A stretch of DNA of 22,244 nucleotides from a virus. The DNA lies in IMG/VR virus record IMGVR_UViG_3300027659_000234, positions 1-22,244 of that record; one strand, written 5' to 3'. Under the pieces are notes generated by a model. The model was not told where the DNA came from. It was given only the letters and a program-made list of their open reading frames with translations, and searched no databases. The first letter of the stretch is position 1. The number at the start of each line of letters is the position of its first letter. Made by a program: the position numbers and the translations under genes. This document shows positions 1-17,060 of the stretch, piece after piece.

Positions 1-3000
1 GGTATAGCGTACGAGAAGAGCAAAGTATCTCGCTCGGAAAAGACCGGCAAAGCTGGTCGGCCAGATGAAGGATTCTCCAAAGCCACCAACGGGGTGCAAG
101 CTCTTGCACGAGTCATAAAAACCGGCAACGCATTCCAGAAGTTTATTGCCCAGCGTCTGCGCAACTTTGTTAAAGACGTAGAGTTTATCGTTGTTGAAAA
201 AGGCGACCCCATACCTGAGCAGTTGCAGCGAAACATAAACGACTGGAACGCCGCACGGGGGTTGTTCATTGAAGACCTACCTGCTAAAACTCGCAGGGTC
301 TATGTGCGCGGGGCTAGCTTTGGGGTTGACCAAGGCGTCAATAATATTACGGTGCTGCACGAGTTGCTGCACGCTGCTACAAACCAGAAGCTGTCTTTGG
401 GTCTGACGGCTATTGCTAATGGTTTCTCTAGTGATGCGCTGCTGACTAGGGCTACGCGAGCGTTTACCCGTGTGATGATGAACGCAAGTGATGCGTACGA
501 AGCTATGGATGCAGCGGGTAAAGTGCCCGATGATCTTCGTGCGTTGGTGGAGTCCACACTCGATATAGACGAGAACGGCAACCCATACTTCAAGATTTTT
601 GAACTGCATCAGGAGTTCTTGGCCTACGGCATGACCGAGCCCGTAATGCAAGAGTTCTTGATGGCTGTGGATGCTACGCAAGCTAAGGGCTCGGCGTTCA
701 ATCGCTTTGTTCGCGCCATCATGGAGTTCTTTGGGGTCGGCGAAAAAGACTTCAGCGCCATGACCGACTTGGTTTTGATTACCGACAAGATTTTGTCCGC
801 GCAGAAAACACCCACCATGCGCAAGCTGGAACGAGTCGAACGCGGGGAGAGCTACGAACAAGTCTTTGCCTCGGCCAAACAGACTCGTAAAAAAGTTGAT
901 AAAGTCGCCGAAAAATTAGGTAAGGGTAATTTCCGTGACGACATCAAGCCTAGTGGTTTGATTGAGCAGTTGATACGCATGCGTAGCATGGAGGAATTTC
1001 TTGAAGCGCTTACGCAAGGCAAAGTTCAACTCAAAGACGCGGTAATGCAGCAACTGCTTCCGGCGTTACAAACAGGGGCTCTTGTACGTTGGGCAGGCAA
1101 GTTAGGTGTTAAAGGCATGAACACAGCGTGGGCAAACATCGAGAAGATGAACGCCATGCGTAACAAGGCTAACAACGATCTGTTTGAGATTGCTGAAGAC
1201 TTGCGAAAGCTAGGGGCCAAAAACGCTAAACAGTACAAAGCACTTGCCGATGTAATGCACTACTCGACCCTTGTGTCGAAAGACCCAAACACAGATACCT
1301 CAAACAAAGGGCTGGTTGAACTGTGGAGCCGACTGCTTCCAGAAAACAAAGCGTTGTACAACAAAGTCCGTCAGTACTACGAAGACAACCACAAGGCATA
1401 CCACGAAGTTCTCCAAGAGCAGATTGATGCGTCCGACCTGCCCGGTAGCGCTAGCGACCCTAAGTCACCAAAAGGCAAGCTAATTGCGTCTATCAAGCAG
1501 ATGTACGAGGACGGCAAGAAGCGCTATCCGTACTTCCCCCTCATGCGCTATGGGCAGTTCTGGGTTCGCGTGGGCAAAGGGCAAACTCGTGAGTTCCACA
1601 TGTTTGAAAAGCAGATAGACCGTGATCGTTTTGTTAAAGAGCGCGTAAAGCAACTGAACGCTGAAACCGGCAACACACGCACTAAAGACGAGATGATGCA
1701 GGGTGGGGATATTGACGAGGGCAATAGCCTGTCTAACGCACGTAAAAAAGATGTAGCCGCCAGTGAAATGCTGAAGGAAATATTTAATAACATCGACTCT
1801 AGCAAGCAAGGCAACACACTTGACGCCGACAAGCTCAAGGATGACATCTATCAGATGTACTTGCAGACTCTTCCAGACCGCAACTTCCGTCGGCAGTTCT
1901 TGACTCGTCAAGGCATTGCTGGTTTTTCAGGGGACATTAACCGTAACCTTGTGACCACCGGCACGAACATGGCAAATCAGATTGCGCGTATCAAGTACGG
2001 CCCTGAGATCATGCGCAACCTTGAGAGCGCTTCAGCTTCCTTAGAAGGGAACCCAAACAAAGCTAGATTGGGCGACTTCGTTGCTGAAATGACTATGCGT
2101 GCAGAGAAACAGATTCGCCCAACCGCCGAGGACTCAATCGGTTACGAAGCCTCAAGGTTTGTTACTACTGCGGCCTTCTTGTGGATGATGACTTCCATCA
2201 AGACTATGGTGGCCCAGCTTACTGCTGTGCCTGTGTTCGTAGCCCCAGTACTTGCGTCTCATCATGGTGTGGCTAAAACTGCCGCCGCTCTTGCTTCGAC
2301 CTTGAATGTATTTAACGGACTCGGCGTAACCAAGACCAATCCCGACGGGTCTACTAGCTATACCATGCCTAGTATGGAGAACCTTAAAGGGCTGACCGCA
2401 GATGAAAAATTAGCCGCTCAGTACATGCGAGACACCGGTATCAGCGACACCACGATGGCCTTTGATTTGGGCAACCGCCGCAACGTACCAACCGCAGAGG
2501 CGCGTAGTGCTTTTGCAAGGGGGCGTAAGGCTACGTCTGACGCAATGACTGCGCTGTTTCACCACGCCGAACGGATGCTTCGTGAAGTGACTTTTATGAC
2601 TTCGTATCGGCTGAACCGCGACAAAGGGTTGACGCACGAAGCAGCTTTGAGCGCCGCCGCCGCTGAATCTCACGAGGCGTTAGGTAACTACCATGCGTCT
2701 GAAAGACCTCGGGGTCTTGCAGCAAATAAAGCGGGGGAGGTAGGACTCAGCGCCGACAGCCCAATTGGTCGCGCCATCTTGCAGTTCAAGATGTTCCCTG
2801 CGTTTGTTACCACGTACTTCATACGCAATGCGTACAACATGTTCAAGGGTTTGACTCCTGAAGAGCGCAAGCAAGCCAAAATTCAATTCTTGGGTTCGCT
2901 CGGCATGTCGTACGCGCTTGCTGGGTATGTCGGCATACCCGGTATCAGTATGGCTATGGGTGTCATCCAAGGTGCTCTGAACGCGCTTAACAAAATGAGC

Positions 3001-3822
3001 GGTGACGATGAGGATGACCCGCTTGAAGGCCGAGACTTTGAGTTCTGGTTCCGCAACATTTGGCTCCCACAGACATTCGGCAACGTAAAGATTGGCGGCT
3101 ATACGCTTGATGAGTTCCTTGATAAAGGTTTGATTGCTGGTTTGACTGGCTACGACATCAGCAGCAGCATGTCCATGAACAACATGTGGTTCCCCGAAGT
3201 AAAAGACCAAGCCACTGCCCAAGCTGAGATGATGGACTACTTGCTTTCTTTGGGAGGTCCGGGTGTTTCCCTTGTCAAGCAGACTGGTCGGGCTATTGAC
3301 TTTTTCAATCAAGGAAAGATTCTTCAAGGTATGGAGCAACTGGCCCCGGCCCTGTTCCGTGCGCCACTGACTGCGTATCGGTATTCTCAAGAAGGTGCGC
3401 AGACTACAACCGGTGCATCTATCAAAGACGCGGAAGAGTTCACCATAGGTCAGATTCTGGCGCAGGGGGCTGGCTTTGCTACTGACGGGCTCCAAGCTCG
3501 CCGAGAGGCTATCTTCAAAATCCAAGGGTTGATTCTGGAAGCTAAGCGTGATCGCTCCAGCGCGTTGGCTAGGTTGGACTTGGAGATCACCAAGGGTTCT
3601 GACAACGACGTTGAAAAGTCTATTGACAAAATCATCAAGTACAACGACAAGAACTATTGGGACCCAATCACAAGCGCTCAGATCAATGAGTCTTTGAAGA
3701 AACGCATAGAGCGTAGGCTGATGTCTGATCGCGGGTTCCCGATTGACAAGAAGTACTATCCACAGGTCATGGACTTGCTGGAGCCAAGCTACAAGAAACT
3801 GGAACGCGAAGCCCAGAAATAA
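1..3822 (+). CDS. Giant internal virion / ejection-type protein, 5'-partial, with HExxH protease-like motif
   Basis: The frame is open from base 1, so the 5' end lies outside the window; a GTG at 94 is only an internal candidate start. At least 1,273 residues are visible. Counting from the GTG, a zincin motif HELLH sits at residues 89-93 (nt 358-372), followed by an EFLAYGM segment near residue 174 that could supply a third metal ligand. The middle is long, charged and helical. Hydrophobic stretches occur near residues 690-735 and 935-965, and an SPIGRAILQFK segment near 889 recalls the PLxRFG/LPD38-type C-terminal regions of very large phage polyproteins. Such proteins are packaged in the virion and enter the cell with the DNA. 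It is the only + strand gene here and likely ends a late (structural) module. The virion role and LPD38-like assignment are inferred from size, motif and memory of the family; protease activity is unproven. Confidence 0.82.
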   Translation, partial: GIAYEKSKVSRSEKTGKAGRPDEGFSKATNGVQALARVIKTGNAFQKFIAQRLRNFVKDVEFIVVEKGDPIPEQLQRNINDWNAARGLFIEDLPAKTRRVYVRGASFGVDQGVNNITVLHELLHAATNQKLSLGLTAIANGFSSDALLTRATRAFTRVMMNASDAYEAMDAAGKVPDDLRALVESTLDIDENGNPYFKIFELHQEFLAYGMTEPVMQEFLMAVDATQAKGSAFNRFVRAIMEFFGVGEKDFSAMTDLVLITDKILSAQKTPTMRKLERVERGESYEQVFASAKQTRKKVDKVAEKLGKGNFRDDIKPSGLIEQLIRMRSMEEFLEALTQGKVQLKDAVMQQLLPALQTGALVRWAGKLGVKGMNTAWANIEKMNAMRNKANNDLFEIAEDLRKLGAKNAKQYKALADVMHYSTLVSKDPNTDTSNKGLVELWSRLLPENKALYNKVRQYYEDNHKAYHEVLQEQIDASDLPGSASDPKSPKGKLIASIKQMYEDGKKRYPYFPLMRYGQFWVRVGKGQTREFHMFEKQIDRDRFVKERVKQLNAETGNTRTKDEMMQGGDIDEGNSLSNARKKDVAASEMLKEIFNNIDSSKQGNTLDADKLKDDIYQMYLQTLPDRNFRRQFLTRQGIAGFSGDINRNLVTTGTNMANQIARIKYGPEIMRNLESASASLEGNPNKARLGDFVAEMTMRAEKQIRPTAEDSIGYEASRFVTTAAFLWMMTSIKTMVAQLTAVPVFVAPVLASHHGVAKTAAALASTLNVFNGLGVTKTNPDGSTSYTMPSMENLKGLTADEKLAAQYMRDTGISDTTMAFDLGNRRNVPTAEARSAFARGRKATSDAMTALFHHAERMLREVTFMTSYRLNRDKGLTHEAALSAAAAESHEALGNYHASERPRGLAANKAGEVGLSADSPIGRAILQFKMFPAFVTTYFIRNAYNMFKGLTPEERKQAKIQFLGSLGMSYALAGYVGIPGISMAMGVIQGALNALNKMSGDDEDDPLEGRDFEFWFRNIWLPQTFGNVKIGGYTLDEFLDKGLIAGLTGYDISSSMSMNNMWFPEVKDQATAQAEMMDYLLSLGGPGVSLVKQTGRAIDFFNQGKILQGMEQLAPALFRAPLTAYRYSQEGAQTTTGASIKDAEEFTIGQILAQGAGFATDGLQARREAIFKIQGLILEAKRDRSSALARLDLEITKGSDNDVEKSIDKIIKYNDKNYWDPITSAQINESLKKRIERRLMSDRGFPIDKKYYPQVMDLLEPSYKKLEREAQK

Positions 3823-8125: not shown

Positions 8126-8545
8126 TTAAGATTTTGCGCGTCGGACGACGACTGTGTATTCGTTCTCAATGTTCAAGCCCATAGGCATGACGTTGGGATT
8201 TTCGGCTAGGAAATCTTTCATGTTGGTTTGGTGCAAGCGCTTCTCAAGCAAGCCAAATGCACTGTGTTCCTTGATGAAAGAGTACATGGAGTCCCAGTCG
8301 CCAGTCCAGTATTTCGACTTGACTGAACGAATGATCGTTCCGTGTGGGGTACGGATGCTGTCAGCACCCATCTCTTTGCAGGTATCGAGCATCTGCTCGG
8401 CCAGCATCTGCTGCTGTGCTTCGAGGTCTTTATCGACGTTCTCAAACTCACGTTTGTTCTCGGCGCGTTTGTCTCGAATCTTCAGGTAGACAGCAGTAAG
8501 CTGATCTAGGTCTGGCCGTTCGGCCCCTTCGTTCTCTTCACTCAT
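8126..8545 (-). CDS. Coiled-coil phage protein of unknown function, promoter-proximal (139 aa)
   Basis: The N-terminal half (about residues 10-60) is a charged coiled coil (LKIRDKRAENKREFENVDKD). The C-terminal half is globular, with GADSIRTPHGTIIRSVKSKYW and a DFLAENPNVMPMGLNIENEYTVVVRR ending. Proteins with this two-part layout are common beside phage replication and recombination genes; I recall no proven function, and a Gam-like end-binding role cannot be inferred safely. It has a strong AAAGGAG Shine-Dalgarno and is the first gene after the promoter at 8575-8602, with a short leader of about 20 nt, so it likely leads the operon ending at 3821. Confidence 0.8.
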   Translation of the reverse strand: MSEENEGAERPDLDQLTAVYLKIRDKRAENKREFENVDKDLEAQQQMLAEQMLDTCKEMGADSIRTPHGTIIRSVKSKYWTGDWDSMYSFIKEHSAFGLLEKRLHQTNMKDFLAENPNVMPMGLNIENEYTVVVRRAKS

Positions 8546-14952: not shown

Positions 14953-15251
14953 TTTGTTCTCTCCTTACATTCGGCTATGACTTTTTCTAAGTAGTCAAGG
15001 TTGTTTTCGTTGATGACACAGGAGTAGCCCCCTGCGGTGTTTATGTCTCGCATGTTCTTCTCTTGCAACGCTGTCGGTACGTTCTTACCTGCCTTGGCTT
15101 CGATGCCCACAAAGTATCCGTTCACACAGCACAGGAAGTCAGGCACTCCACTACTGCCGTACCCCGTGCCCATAGGCATAGCGTAGTACGCGCCGTGTTC
15201 TTTCAGAATCTTCTTTATCTTCTCTTTTACTTTTGACTCAGGGGTTGCCAC
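14949..15251 (-). CDS. VRR-NUC domain nuclease (100 aa)
   Basis: A minimal PD-(D/E)XK nuclease of the VRR-NUC family. Catalytic pattern: GVPDFLCC (D38), then GIEAKAG (E51, K53), followed by LQEKNMRDI and a YSCVI strand, the order typical of stand-alone phage VRR-NUC proteins. Family members cut branched DNA and are proposed Holliday-junction resolvases in phages. The start is a GTG at 15251 with AAGGAG nine bases upstream, overlapping the zinc-ribbon gene by 14 nt. It is followed by ATGA coupling to the 165-residue gene. Confidence 0.93.
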   Translation of the reverse strand: MATPESKVKEKIKKILKEHGAYYAMPMGTGYGSSGVPDFLCCVNGYFVGIEAKAGKNVPTALQEKNMRDINTAGGYSCVINENNLDYLEKVIAECKERTK

Positions 15252-15420
15252 TAGATTGCTCCTTGGTTTTCTTGGGTCGTCCGCGCTTCTTGTCAGGGAC
15301 TACTCGCTCTTCGGTTGTGAATGTGTGGTTGTTGGCACATCTGCGTCTACGCTCTACAAAACCACCCAAGTTCTTTGTCTGCTCGACTGTCGTCCACTCG
15401 TTACAGGTTGGGCACTTCAA
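15238..15420 (-). CDS. Zinc-ribbon DNA-binding protein, NrdR-like, TTG start (60 aa)
   Basis: The product starts MKCPTCNEW and has CPTC (C3, C6) and RRRRCANNHTF (a C-x3-H pair), a zinc ribbon like the N-terminal domain of NrdR, then a FTTEERVV strand and a basic tail with an AT-hook-like KKRGRPKK. DNA or RNA binding is likely. The start is inferred as TTG at 15420: the preceding GGAGAAGAACAC is identical to the ribosome-site cassette before the ATGs at 15725, 16335 and 16550, at identical spacing, and TTG overlaps the upstream TGA. The frame also extends to an ATG at 15468, but that would overlap by 52 nt and precede the zinc ribbon with an unrelated 16-residue leader. Confidence 0.8.
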   Translation of the reverse strand: MKCPTCNEWTTVEQTKNLGGFVERRRRCANNHTFTTEERVVPDKKRGRPKKTKEQSSGNP

Positions 15421-15725
15421 GTGTTCTTCTCCATGTTTGCGGGTAGCCCCGTGTCTTTCCAAACCCAACCAATTCGGTGCGGAGGGTTAGGGTAGCGCCC
15501 CAAGGTAATCTCTCTGCCGTTGAGCACCTTAGTTAAACCCTGTTTCATTAGGTCTTCTAGCGTTGGCTCTGGGTCACGCCAAATGTCAGGTGTTGCCCAT
15601 GCAAATAGGGCCATCCACATAGTTGCGGATTTGTTCCCAGAGACTTCGTAGTGAAGTTTGGCAAAGTCAAGCTGGTTCTCACGCTCTTGCAGCCACCACT
15701 CATGTGCGGTAGTTGGTCTGGTCAT
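15417..15725 (-). CDS. Hypothetical protein, Trp-rich (102 aa)
   Basis: The product MTRPTTAHEWWLQERENQLDF ... ends GRYPNPPHRIGWVWKDTG followed by NMEKNT. It is rich in Trp and aromatic residues with no recognisable catalytic motif. The first ATG at 15725 overlaps the upstream stop by ATGA and is preceded by GGAGAAGAACAC. The final EKNT is a by-product of the next gene's ribosome site, as in neighbouring genes. No family recognised. Confidence 0.8.
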   Translation of the reverse strand: MTRPTTAHEWWLQERENQLDFAKLHYEVSGNKSATMWMALFAWATPDIWRDPEPTLEDLMKQGLTKVLNGREITLGRYPNPPHRIGWVWKDTGLPANMEKNT

Positions 15726-15746
15726 GTGTTCTTCTCCTTGAGTTTG
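15721..15746 (-). repeat. Start/stop cassette repeat, copy A
   Basis: A 26-bp sequence identical to 16546-16571; 19 bp of it (ending at the ATGA) also occurs at 16332-16350. On the - strand it reads AAGGAGAAGAACACATGA, so it encodes the C-terminus KEKNT-stop of one gene, the Shine-Dalgarno of the next, and the overlapping start codon. Degenerate versions are at 15417-15435 (TTG start) and 15970-15983. Confidence 0.85.
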
Positions 15747-15973
15747 TTGTTGATGTTCTCGTAGGTTGCCCGTAACGATACCTCCATGCTGCCTACATGC
15801 TTAACTCCGTCTTTGTCGGTGTATGGCGGGTCATACTCAAACCGTTTAAACACTGTGCATTCCATAATCTCCGCATCCGTCAGCCCTGCCCACTTCTCGC
15901 AGTTGTGTACGCTTTTAAGCCCCATCGCGTTGGCTACGGCTCGGTCAAGTGCGGCTCCTGTCAGTTTGCTCAT
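15722..15973 (-). CDS. Hybrid small phage protein, DUF2591-like N-terminus (83 aa)
   Basis: The start MSKLTGAALDRAVANAMG resembles the N-terminus of DUF2591-type phage proteins. The rest has WAGLTDAEI and ends NINNKLKEKNT, the same C-terminal module as the protein at 16547-17059. I chose the ATG at 15973 because it overlaps the upstream stop (ATGA) after GGAGAAGAC; an ATG at 16000 is weaker. The protein looks like a recombination of two small-gene modules. Function unknown. Confidence 0.8.
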   Translation of the reverse strand: MSKLTGAALDRAVANAMGLKSVHNCEKWAGLTDAEIMECTVFKRFEYDPPYTDKDGVKHVGSMEVSLRATYENINNKLKEKNT

Positions 15974-16335
15974 GTCTTCTCCGGTCTTTGTTCGTAGCAA
16001 CTCATCCCCATAAAGTCATCGGGGTGGAACAGTAAGTTGGGCATAGTTTGGCACTCGCCCCGTAACATGCCATCTTTTCTTGGCTCATGCTTTACACGAA
16101 CAAGATGCTTGCAGGTATTGCAGTTAGCCTCGCTCTCGTCAAAATTGCGCTTGGACTTTTTAAAGAATGGCAGTGCAGTCGGGTGGCACACGTATGTACC
16201 GTTGACCTGTGGTACGCATGCCCCCAAGAAGATGGCCTCTTCCCGTGACACTCTCAGCCCCGTGTACTGGCAGGTGTACAACCCTTCAGCGTCCGGTTCG
16301 TTAAGTATCGGCTTGCCGTTTGGTGCTCGTATCAT
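15970..16335 (-). CDS. Cys-rich zinc-ribbon-like hypothetical protein (121 aa)
   Basis: Cysteine positions suggest two metal sites: CQYTG near residue 22, C40 (GACVP), C50 (YVC), then NCNTCKH around 72-76, and C97 and C112 near the end. The NCNTCKHL-type knuckle is common in small phage proteins. The middle is basic (FKKSKRNF, RVKHEPRK), consistent with nucleic acid binding. The start at 16335 carries the AAGGAGAAGAACAC cassette with ATGA overlap. No exact family recognised. Confidence 0.8.
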   Translation of the reverse strand: MIRAPNGKPILNEPDAEGLYTCQYTGLRVSREEAIFLGACVPQVNGTYVCHPTALPFFKKSKRNFDESEANCNTCKHLVRVKHEPRKDGMLRGECQTMPNLLFHPDDFMGMSCYEQRPEKT

Positions 16336-16550
16336 GTGTTCTTCTCCTTGTTAGGCCACTGCGCCCAAAAAACAGGCTCGCCAATAATTTCTTCTTTGCC
16401 CGTAACCCGTGTCACAAACTCAAGTGGTGACACCTGAACAGTGTCTGGCTGTGCCAAAGCATCTTTAATCGCCCATCGAACACACCTACGCTCATGTGCA
16501 TTTGTTTCAATGTACTCAAGGCACATCTGTAGTGCTTCTTCTTTGGTCAT
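16332..16550 (-). CDS. Small array protein with N-terminal EALQMCLE module (72 aa)
   Basis: Begins MTKEEALQMCLEYIETN, nearly the same N-terminal module as the next-upstream protein (MTKDEALQMCLEALE), and ends NKEKNT from the shared cassette. The middle is unrelated (AIKDALAQPDTVQVSPLEFVTRV), with an IKDALAQP segment like the AIKEALAQP seen in many small phage proteins. The start codon at 16550 overlaps the previous stop (ATGA) after GGAGAAGAACAC. Apparently a shortened module-shuffled relative of its neighbour. Function unknown. Confidence 0.8.
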   Translation of the reverse strand: MTKEEALQMCLEYIETNAHERRCVRWAIKDALAQPDTVQVSPLEFVTRVTGKEEIIGEPVFWAQWPNKEKNT

Positions 16551-16551
16551 G
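16515..16551 (-). repeat. 37-bp direct repeat, copy 1 (N-terminal module)
   Basis: Matches 17024-17060 at 34 of 37 positions. It spans the start codon and first 12 codons of the 72-residue gene, so the duplication encodes MTK-x-EALQMCLE. Confidence 0.8.
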
Positions 16552-16571
16552 TGTTCTTCTCCTTGAGTTTG
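16546..16571 (-). repeat. Start/stop cassette repeat, copy B
   Basis: Identical to the 26 bp at 15721-15746. It joins the KLKEKNT-stop end of the 170-residue gene to the ATG of the 72-residue gene. Adjoins the 37-bp repeat at 16515-16551. Confidence 0.85.
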
Positions 16572-17059
16572 GCTTCAATGCCTCTAAAAAATTCACGCCA
16601 AAAACTATCGGTCGGGTCTGATGCTTCCATTTTTTCAGCGCAATCTGCAATCTCCTCATCTGTCAGCCCTACCCATGTGCGCTGTGGTGGATGTGTATAA
16701 AACGAGCCAGCCATGTGCTCATGAAACTGCTCCCACGCCACAGCCTCTTTTGCTGGCTTTGGCTTACAGGCATCATTGAACCCTTCTGCATAGCCCAACG
16801 CATAGTCTCCCGATGTTGGCTGTACCGTCAATTCTTCAATGCGTTTTTCCAGCCTTTTGATTGTCATTTCGTGGTATCGAATGATGAGTTCATCTTCATC
16901 ACACTCGTCCAAGGCTTCTTTGATGGCGGTGATGGCATCTCGGCATTGAACCACCTCATACAAGCCGCCCGAAATAGACGCATCCAGCACTTTTGGAGAA
17001 TTATCTAAAACCCCCTCCAACGCCTCAAGACACATCTGTAGTGCTTCGTCTTTAGTCAT
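16547..17059 (-). CDS. Modular small-array protein with both shared ends (170 aa)
   Basis: The protein has three parts: an N-terminal helical module MTKDEALQMCLEALE ... CRDAITAIKEALDE, a coiled middle (IIRYHEMTIKRLEKRIEELT), and a C-terminal module VAWEQFHEH ... FYTHPPQRTWVGLTDEEI ... IEAKLKEKNT. Such EAL / AITAIKEAL / YTHPP / LTDEEI proteins are recurrent, functionally unassigned phage proteins that I associate with Burkholderiales phages. I chose the ATG at 17059 (GAGGACGAGC upstream, 8-nt overlap); the open frame continues to 17116 but that would overlap the 52-residue gene heavily. Its two ends recur in the neighbours at 16332 and 15722. Confidence 0.8.
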   Translation of the reverse strand: MTKDEALQMCLEALEGVLDNSPKVLDASISGGLYEVVQCRDAITAIKEALDECDEDELIIRYHEMTIKRLEKRIEELTVQPTSGDYALGYAEGFNDACKPKPAKEAVAWEQFHEHMAGSFYTHPPQRTWVGLTDEEIADCAEKMEASDPTDSFWREFFRGIEAKLKEKNT

Positions 17060-17060
17060 G
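17024..17060 (-). repeat. 37-bp direct repeat, copy 2 (N-terminal module)
   Basis: Matches 16515-16551 with 3 mismatches, and likewise spans the start codon of its gene. Here the upstream flank is GCTCGTCCTC rather than the KEKNT cassette, so the repeat boundary falls at the start codon. Confidence 0.8.

Follow-up and report, generated by a model that had tools for sequence, protein, structure and literature searches.

It has long been asked whether phage genomes owe their mosaicism to random recombination followed by selection or to homologous exchange between boundary sequences; the idea of exchange at boundaries has so far lacked a boundary sequence widespread enough for testing. The present case is an array of small minus-strand genes (15238-17059) in a 22,244-nucleotide (nt) stretch of viral DNA, positions 1 to 22,244 of IMG/VR record IMGVR_UViG_3300027659_000234, referred to as the window. 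A preliminary description of the sequence noted five neighboring genes with shared ends and proposed that short homologies at start and stop let the phage swap whole small genes or half-genes. The chain itself was confirmed, with 4-nt overlaps between neighbors, and comprises six genes once the Zn-ribbon gene beginning at TTG 15420 is included. The cassette AAGGAGAAGAACACATGA, 18 nt long, is present exactly at three of the five joints of the array and in variant form at the other two. We refer to it as joint A. It often reaches farther upstream, to about 45 nt, as TTTGCCCGAGCCATYGAAGCCAAACTCAAGGAGAAGAACACATGA, and encodes a protein end ..EAKLKEKNT, a Shine-Dalgarno sequence and an ATGA stop/start overlap. 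An identity between two of the joints, first described as 26 bp, in fact spans 28 bp (15719-15746 and 16544-16571). The shared ends are real: in 965 kb of DNA (80 loci plus the window, picked by DNA polymerase similarity only), the 17-mer AAGGAGAAGAACACATG occurred 22 times, whereas rearranging its 8-nt spacer in 167 other ways gave a mean of 0.006 copies per arrangement and a maximum of one. In loci not selected for the cassette, the end seen most often at ATGA joints, even where the full cassette is lacking, is AACAC immediately ahead of ATGA (C-terminal ..NT), with 56 downstream families versus 24 for the next.

The cassette extends far beyond this locus. IMG/VR contains the 18-mer in at least 120 stretches. 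In each of the 143 copies in the stretches listed, one frame reads KEKNT-stop and the following frame ATGA, and a substantial open frame lies on either side of nearly all of them. Bacterial and archaeal genomes totaling 257 Gb held the 18-mer 59 times. Most of these copies are ordinary ribosome sites preceded by a short frame, and they are mostly chance occurrences; only L221 (a betaproteobacterial metagenome-assembled genome, MAG), L247 (a MAG of Rhodoferax) and possibly a third resemble joints. Among named complete genomes, DSL-LC04 and MW202879 have the exact 18-mer, and MW202701 and MW202674 have versions that differ from it by one or two changes. A comparison of the 4.2-kb DSL-LC04 array with named phages gave a single non-self match, 45 bp in DSL-LC05 that coincide exactly with the joint. 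Both genomes come from one lake (Dishui Lake), but terminase places them with different phages (PMC10611076). Host predictions for the Dishui Lake genomes (PMC10611076) and the two MAG contigs point to Pseudomonadota. Overall, the carriers are many unrelated tailed phages, mostly uncultured and from aquatic samples; judging from few named records, the source waters were probably mostly fresh. Metagenome assemblies make up most of the sequences, and the cassette itself was the criterion for one of the locus sets.

Genes flanking the cassette differ widely from locus to locus. The fetched loci held 1534 unique ATGA joints with a Shine-Dalgarno sequence, of which 236 were cassettes (at most one mismatch), linking 168 gene families on the upstream side with 176 on the downstream side (clustered by simple thresholds). 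Where a family had two or more members, multiple upstream partners were seen in 25 of 30 downstream families and multiple downstream partners in 29 of 32 upstream families. Distinct downstream genes numbered 134 after the cassette versus 7 after the commonest other 14-mer preceding ATGA. Close relatives of the window display the same variability at small scale. The 59-aa gene and the Zn-ribbon gene are constant anchors, and the set of small genes between them varies; gene maps of relatives with a 98-100% identical polymerase, together with locus L271, revealed whole-gene gain, loss and replacement exactly at joints. In L271, for example, the 121-aa gene is joined straight to a relative of the 102-aa gene, the 83-aa gene missing exactly between the joints. 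Relatives of the 121-aa gene (86-100% identity) have at least six upstream and at least seven downstream neighbors, always with the 4-nt overlap. As a separate observation, L127 has a 91-aa frame (210-485) in which the 83-aa gene's N-terminal end runs into a portion of the 102-aa (MTRPTT) gene, either a real deletion or an assembly chimera.

Cassettes also tend to be exchanged for cassettes. In the polymerase-selected set, 13 of 18 pairs with a new upstream neighbor were cassette-to-cassette, compared with 7% under label shuffling that ignores kinship. In loci not selected for the cassette, the figures were 88 of 222 and 115 of 145 versus 13% (0 of 1000 shuffles, kinship likewise ignored), and cassette joints again traded by preference with a cassette or near-cassette.

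Alignments between loci break at the joints. Homology begins just left of the cassette and stops just right of it, and the mean share of broken alignments at cassettes was 0.79 on the downstream side and 0.76 on the upstream side. Corresponding values were 0.53 and 0.38 at other ATGA joints with a Shine-Dalgarno sequence, 0.23 and 0.25 at other Shine-Dalgarno starts, and 0.29 and 0.20 at random nearby positions. Where an upstream neighbor had been replaced and both joints were cassettes, 18 of 27 cases had a shared tract left of ATG of 10-14 nt, equal to the cassette; in the others it measured 20-40 nt. Conservation at the DNA level reaches past the ribosome site, with synonymous positions conserved to about 25 nt upstream of the Shine-Dalgarno sequence. 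In module families (see below) from loci not selected for the cassette, codons in this region are close to fixed relative to background (GAA 0.94 versus 0.45; GCC 0.96 versus 0.26; AAA 0.90 versus 0.37; CTC 0.65 versus 0.13). Recent spread as DNA explains such codons; ribosome binding or protein function does not do so simply.

A second joint lies inside genes. The 170-aa and 83-aa genes were described as ending in a common C-terminal module, and the module starts (15857-15892 and 16640-16675) are indeed 81% identical over 36 nt. The module spans W-x-G-L-T to the protein end (median 39 aa) and is encoded in 111 of the 168 cassette-upstream families versus 4% of other ATGA-upstream families. 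The module motif is missing from about one third of the proteins upstream of cassettes, and most of these have little in common except the KEKNT tail. An AlphaFold2 model built from a 113-sequence alignment predicts a two-helix hairpin (mean predicted local distance difference test score 92). Against Pfam and PHROG profiles the hairpin module matched no described family and gave only scattered weak hits; against PDB there was no convincing sequence match and nothing significant by fold. The best fold matches in BFVD were uncharacterized proteins of uncultured Caudovirales. A calmodulin-like identity was considered and rejected, as the PDB sequence search reached E 0.035 at best and the resemblance is that of a helix cap, LTDEE. 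Module genes with the joint are present and unannotated in the complete phage genomes MW202701 (L264, 4001-4498) and MW202879 (L436, about 1760-2274).

At the DNA start of the module is a pattern of about 24 nt, TGGGTWGGGCTGACGGATGAGGAA (WVGLTDEE), which we term joint B; the cassette marks the module's end. An independent IMG/VR scan with the 18-mer core of joint B recovered at least 120 stretches, and among the matches listed 95 of 99 new copies were in the same frame after W. About half of these copies lead to a gene ending in the cassette, and others to an end of KEKN plus other residues. Measured from the module's W codon, homology within genes peaks in its starts at -10 to 0 nt and in its ends at +20 to +30 nt, the bounds of joint B. 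Codon use is skewed here as well (GGG 0.82 versus 0.16 in background; CTG 0.79 versus 0.23; GAT 0.97 versus 0.42). Relatives of three window genes match one part each, bearing out the earlier suggestion of half-gene swapping: more than 15 IMG/VR loci match residues about 119-170 of the 170-aa protein alone, at 90-100% identity and with other N-termini, relatives of the 83-aa protein match residues 1-28 or else 28-83, and those of the 102-aa protein residues 1-53 or else 55-100.

We consider it likely that short shared boundary sequences recombine, moving whole genes and half-genes with stop, Shine-Dalgarno sequence and start in register. The array would then be part of a gene-shuffling zone common to many tailed phages, with two boundary sequences as standard joints. 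Between two phages in one cell, recombination of A with A would exchange whole genes, and recombination of B with A would exchange half-genes or the hairpin module. An exchange inside joint A would leave stop, ribosome site and start in register, and a new neighbor would therefore be translated by coupling across the joint. The acting recombinase is probably a single-strand-annealing phage recombinase or host RecA. The joints and how widely they occur, the changes of neighbor, the breakpoints at joint edges and the conservation of synonymous positions are direct observations. The preliminary description is supported on the swapping of whole genes and half-genes, with the qualification that the system is common to many phages and does not belong to one.

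Several observations weigh against this reading. Non-cassette ATGA joints in the same arrays swap too, with more than one partner in 93 of 136 and 91 of 137 families, and 47 of the 176 cassette-bearing downstream families have other joints elsewhere. Non-cassette swaps share a median of 2 nt left of ATG, so shuffling can do without homology. For RecA, 18 bp is short, and the window yielded no annealing recombinase. The predominance of metagenome assemblies, the neglect of relatedness in the shuffles and the choice of one locus set by cassette also count here. Because non-cassette joints swap as well, if less often, we infer rather than observe that short homology itself promotes exchange.

The same swaps at non-cassette joints would be expected if illegitimate recombination occurred anywhere and selection kept intact stop/Shine-Dalgarno/start boundaries, the cassette hitchhiking as the tail of a successful C-terminal module, which is present in two thirds of cassette-upstream families. 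Such a process surely operates too, since non-cassette joints swap. As the account of the cassette itself we think it unlikely: breaks are more frequent at cassettes than at other ATGA joints, both partners in a swap, on either side, tend to have the cassette, about one third of upstream proteins have little in common beyond the KEKNT tail, and DNA-level conservation runs well past the Shine-Dalgarno sequence. It is rather doubtful, though conceivable, that the joints are active recombination sites, where a phage or host function would prefer joint DNA (A and B) and sustain public gene-trading among unrelated phages of the same waters.

Translation by itself is a very improbable cause. Under that explanation AAGGAGAAGAACAC-ATGA would be a very good coupled start, reached by convergence or selection, with no part in exchange. 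AAGGAG does stand at normal spacing with an ATGA overlap in every case, and AACAC-ATGA ends are common even without the full cassette. Yet the 167 spacer permutations, which keep Shine-Dalgarno sequence, spacing and composition, are almost absent, synonymous conservation extends about 25 nt further upstream, and breakpoints cluster at the cassette and likewise at joint B, where a translation signal is absent. That the swaps are chimeras assembled at short repeats is scarcely credible; most loci are assemblies and the 91-aa fusion in L127 is odd, but the same neighbor arrangements recur in separate IMG samples (e.g. L267, L272, L273 and L296), and the joint is also found in Dishui Lake genomes, whose assemblies were verified by mate-pair mapping and PCR (PMC10611076). 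One recent local tandem duplication, which could have produced the 28 identical bp within the window, can be dismissed given 236 unique cassette joints on many contigs and in unrelated named genomes. Exchange through shared boundary sequences remains the explanation we prefer.

Features of the array are collected in the table. The 72-aa and 170-aa genes begin with a common 37-bp N-terminal module, 34 positions of which are identical as originally reported. This module, M-x-x-EAL-x-x-ALEALE, opens many otherwise different array genes (the window copies and several downstream genes, for example L439, 2542-2889, and L113, 10286-10642) and is a possible third joint. For the Zn-ribbon gene, the most likely start is TTG 15420, which gives a TTGA overlap, and not ATG 15432; the overlap is also found in relatives L125, L126 and L127. 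Its 60-aa product had a weak NrdR-like Zn-ribbon match, below cut-off.

Table. Genes, joints and modules of the small-gene array, with positions in the window.
Feature	Position	Strand	Description
170-aa gene	16547..17059	-	N-terminal MTKDEALQMCLEALE module, variable middle, C-terminal hairpin module with end GIEAKLKEKNT
72-aa gene	16332..16550	-	N-terminal module as in 170-aa gene, other body, end NKEKNT, without hairpin module
121-aa gene	15970..16335	-	variable neighbors elsewhere (at least 6 upstream, at least 7 downstream)
83-aa gene	15722..15973	-	half-gene chimera, break at module start
102-aa gene	15417..15725	-	half-gene chimera by matches of relatives
60-aa Zn-ribbon gene	15238..15420	-	most likely TTG start 15420; conserved right-hand anchor of array
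Cassette joint 170/72	16547..16564	-	exact AAGGAGAAGAACACATGA: KEKNT stop, Shine-Dalgarno AAGGAG, ATGA overlap
Cassette joint 72/121	16332..16349	-	exact
Cassette joint 83/102	15722..15739	-	exact
Variant joint 121/83	15970..15987	-	ccggagaagacATGA, PEKT end; in relatives PEKNT form ccggagaagaacacATGA
Variant joint 102/Zn-ribbon	15417..15434	-	atggagaagaacacTTGA, TTG start
Joint B in 170-aa gene	16652..16675	-	intragenic, hairpin module start; TGGGTAGGGCTGACAGATGAGGAG = WVGLTDEE
Joint B in 83-aa gene	15869..15892	-	intragenic; WAGLTDAE
C-terminal hairpin module	16550..16681	-	44 aa as folded
N-terminal module copy 1	16515..16551	-	start of 72-aa gene
N-terminal module copy 2	17024..17060	-	start of 170-aa gene; 34/37 (92%) identical to copy 1

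The downstream genes show no common function, as Pfam matches were few and mixed: 143 downstream genes gave 11 matches in all, to ten families, including HTH/Cro/CI, sigma-70 region 4, integrase, PD-(D/E)XK and YdaS. Such small genes may serve host takeover or counter-defense. Elsewhere in the window, 94-3822 (plus strand) encodes a 1242-aa protein whose C-terminal ~750 residues match a DarB-like antirestriction PHROG, and the gene at 8129-8545, within the replication cluster, has a PHROG match (2.8e-23) whose family name, 'minor head protein', looks misleading here.

The joints bear on the origin of phage mosaicism, as hundreds of them in unrelated phages carry one exact sequence. The arrays supply natural controls in their other ATGA joints, and the joint sequence permits an exact scramble test. 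Moreover, the two short DNA patterns offer a way to locate small accessory genes, unnamed and numbering in the hundreds, some of them unannotated in complete genomes. Collectively, the system is a rare, testable case of phage genomes assembled from parts with standard connectors.

Among known systems, the closest is found in lambdoid phages, whose conserved boundary (linker) sequences have been put forward as mediators of module exchange (refs 21-22 in PMC3029335; ref 9 in PMC2327257). Both cases involve a short conserved sequence at the boundaries of different genes where homology starts and ends, and homologous exchange has been proposed. Unlike the lambdoid case, a single sequence of 18 to 45 nt here serves unrelated phages and at least 168 families upstream and 176 downstream, and lies inside coding DNA with a translation overlap and a second, intragenic joint. 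Adjacent genes 67 and 68 of mycobacteriophage Island3 have 18 C-terminal residues and nucleotide sequence in common, and recombination at 3' ends was proposed (PMC3029335); that is a single instance, whereas the present joint is repeated and widespread. SAS/ESAS of cluster K mycobacteriophages are Shine-Dalgarno repeats before gene starts of many families, conserved beyond Shine-Dalgarno needs (PMC3203893). Like SAS, joint A is a Shine-Dalgarno-containing repeat ahead of starts in different families; SAS differ in sequence, are essentially confined to one cluster and are not tied to an ATGA overlap with a C-terminal module, and exchange has not been shown for them. The SAS consensus GGGATAGGAGCCC had only 3-mismatch matches, at chance level and none in the array.

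T4-type PeSL, reported by Arbiol et al. in 2010, are mobile regulatory cassettes of an intergenic early promoter and stem-loop between swapped small genes. They share with the present joint the position of a repeated cassette between swapped small genes; joint A is fully coding, without promoter or stem-loop. One sigma-70-like match was found in 2.8 kb, off-joint and below the shuffle mean, fold z-scores were +0.6 to -1.2, and no inverted repeats of at least 12 nt were present. The lambda ninR region is likewise reported (Kroeger and Hobom, 1982) to be a chain of ATGA-interlinked genes, resembling the array in its 4-nt overlaps with Shine-Dalgarno sequences inside the upstream gene; its sequences are different, and exchange across unrelated phages through one joint is not known to have been described for it. 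Integrons resemble the array as sets of interchangeable small genes. Palindromic attC-like sites were not found at the joints, and no IntI integrase match was obtained among the window proteins scanned, which represent part of the open reading frames of an incomplete genome. These attC, promoter/stem-loop and consensus tests rule out membership in integrons, PeSL and SAS, and we found no description of the same joint in phages in the open-licence literature. We conclude that the joint system is a new, unusually widespread form of the conserved boundary sequences of phage mosaicism, and that it also stands out by lying in coding DNA and by having a second joint.

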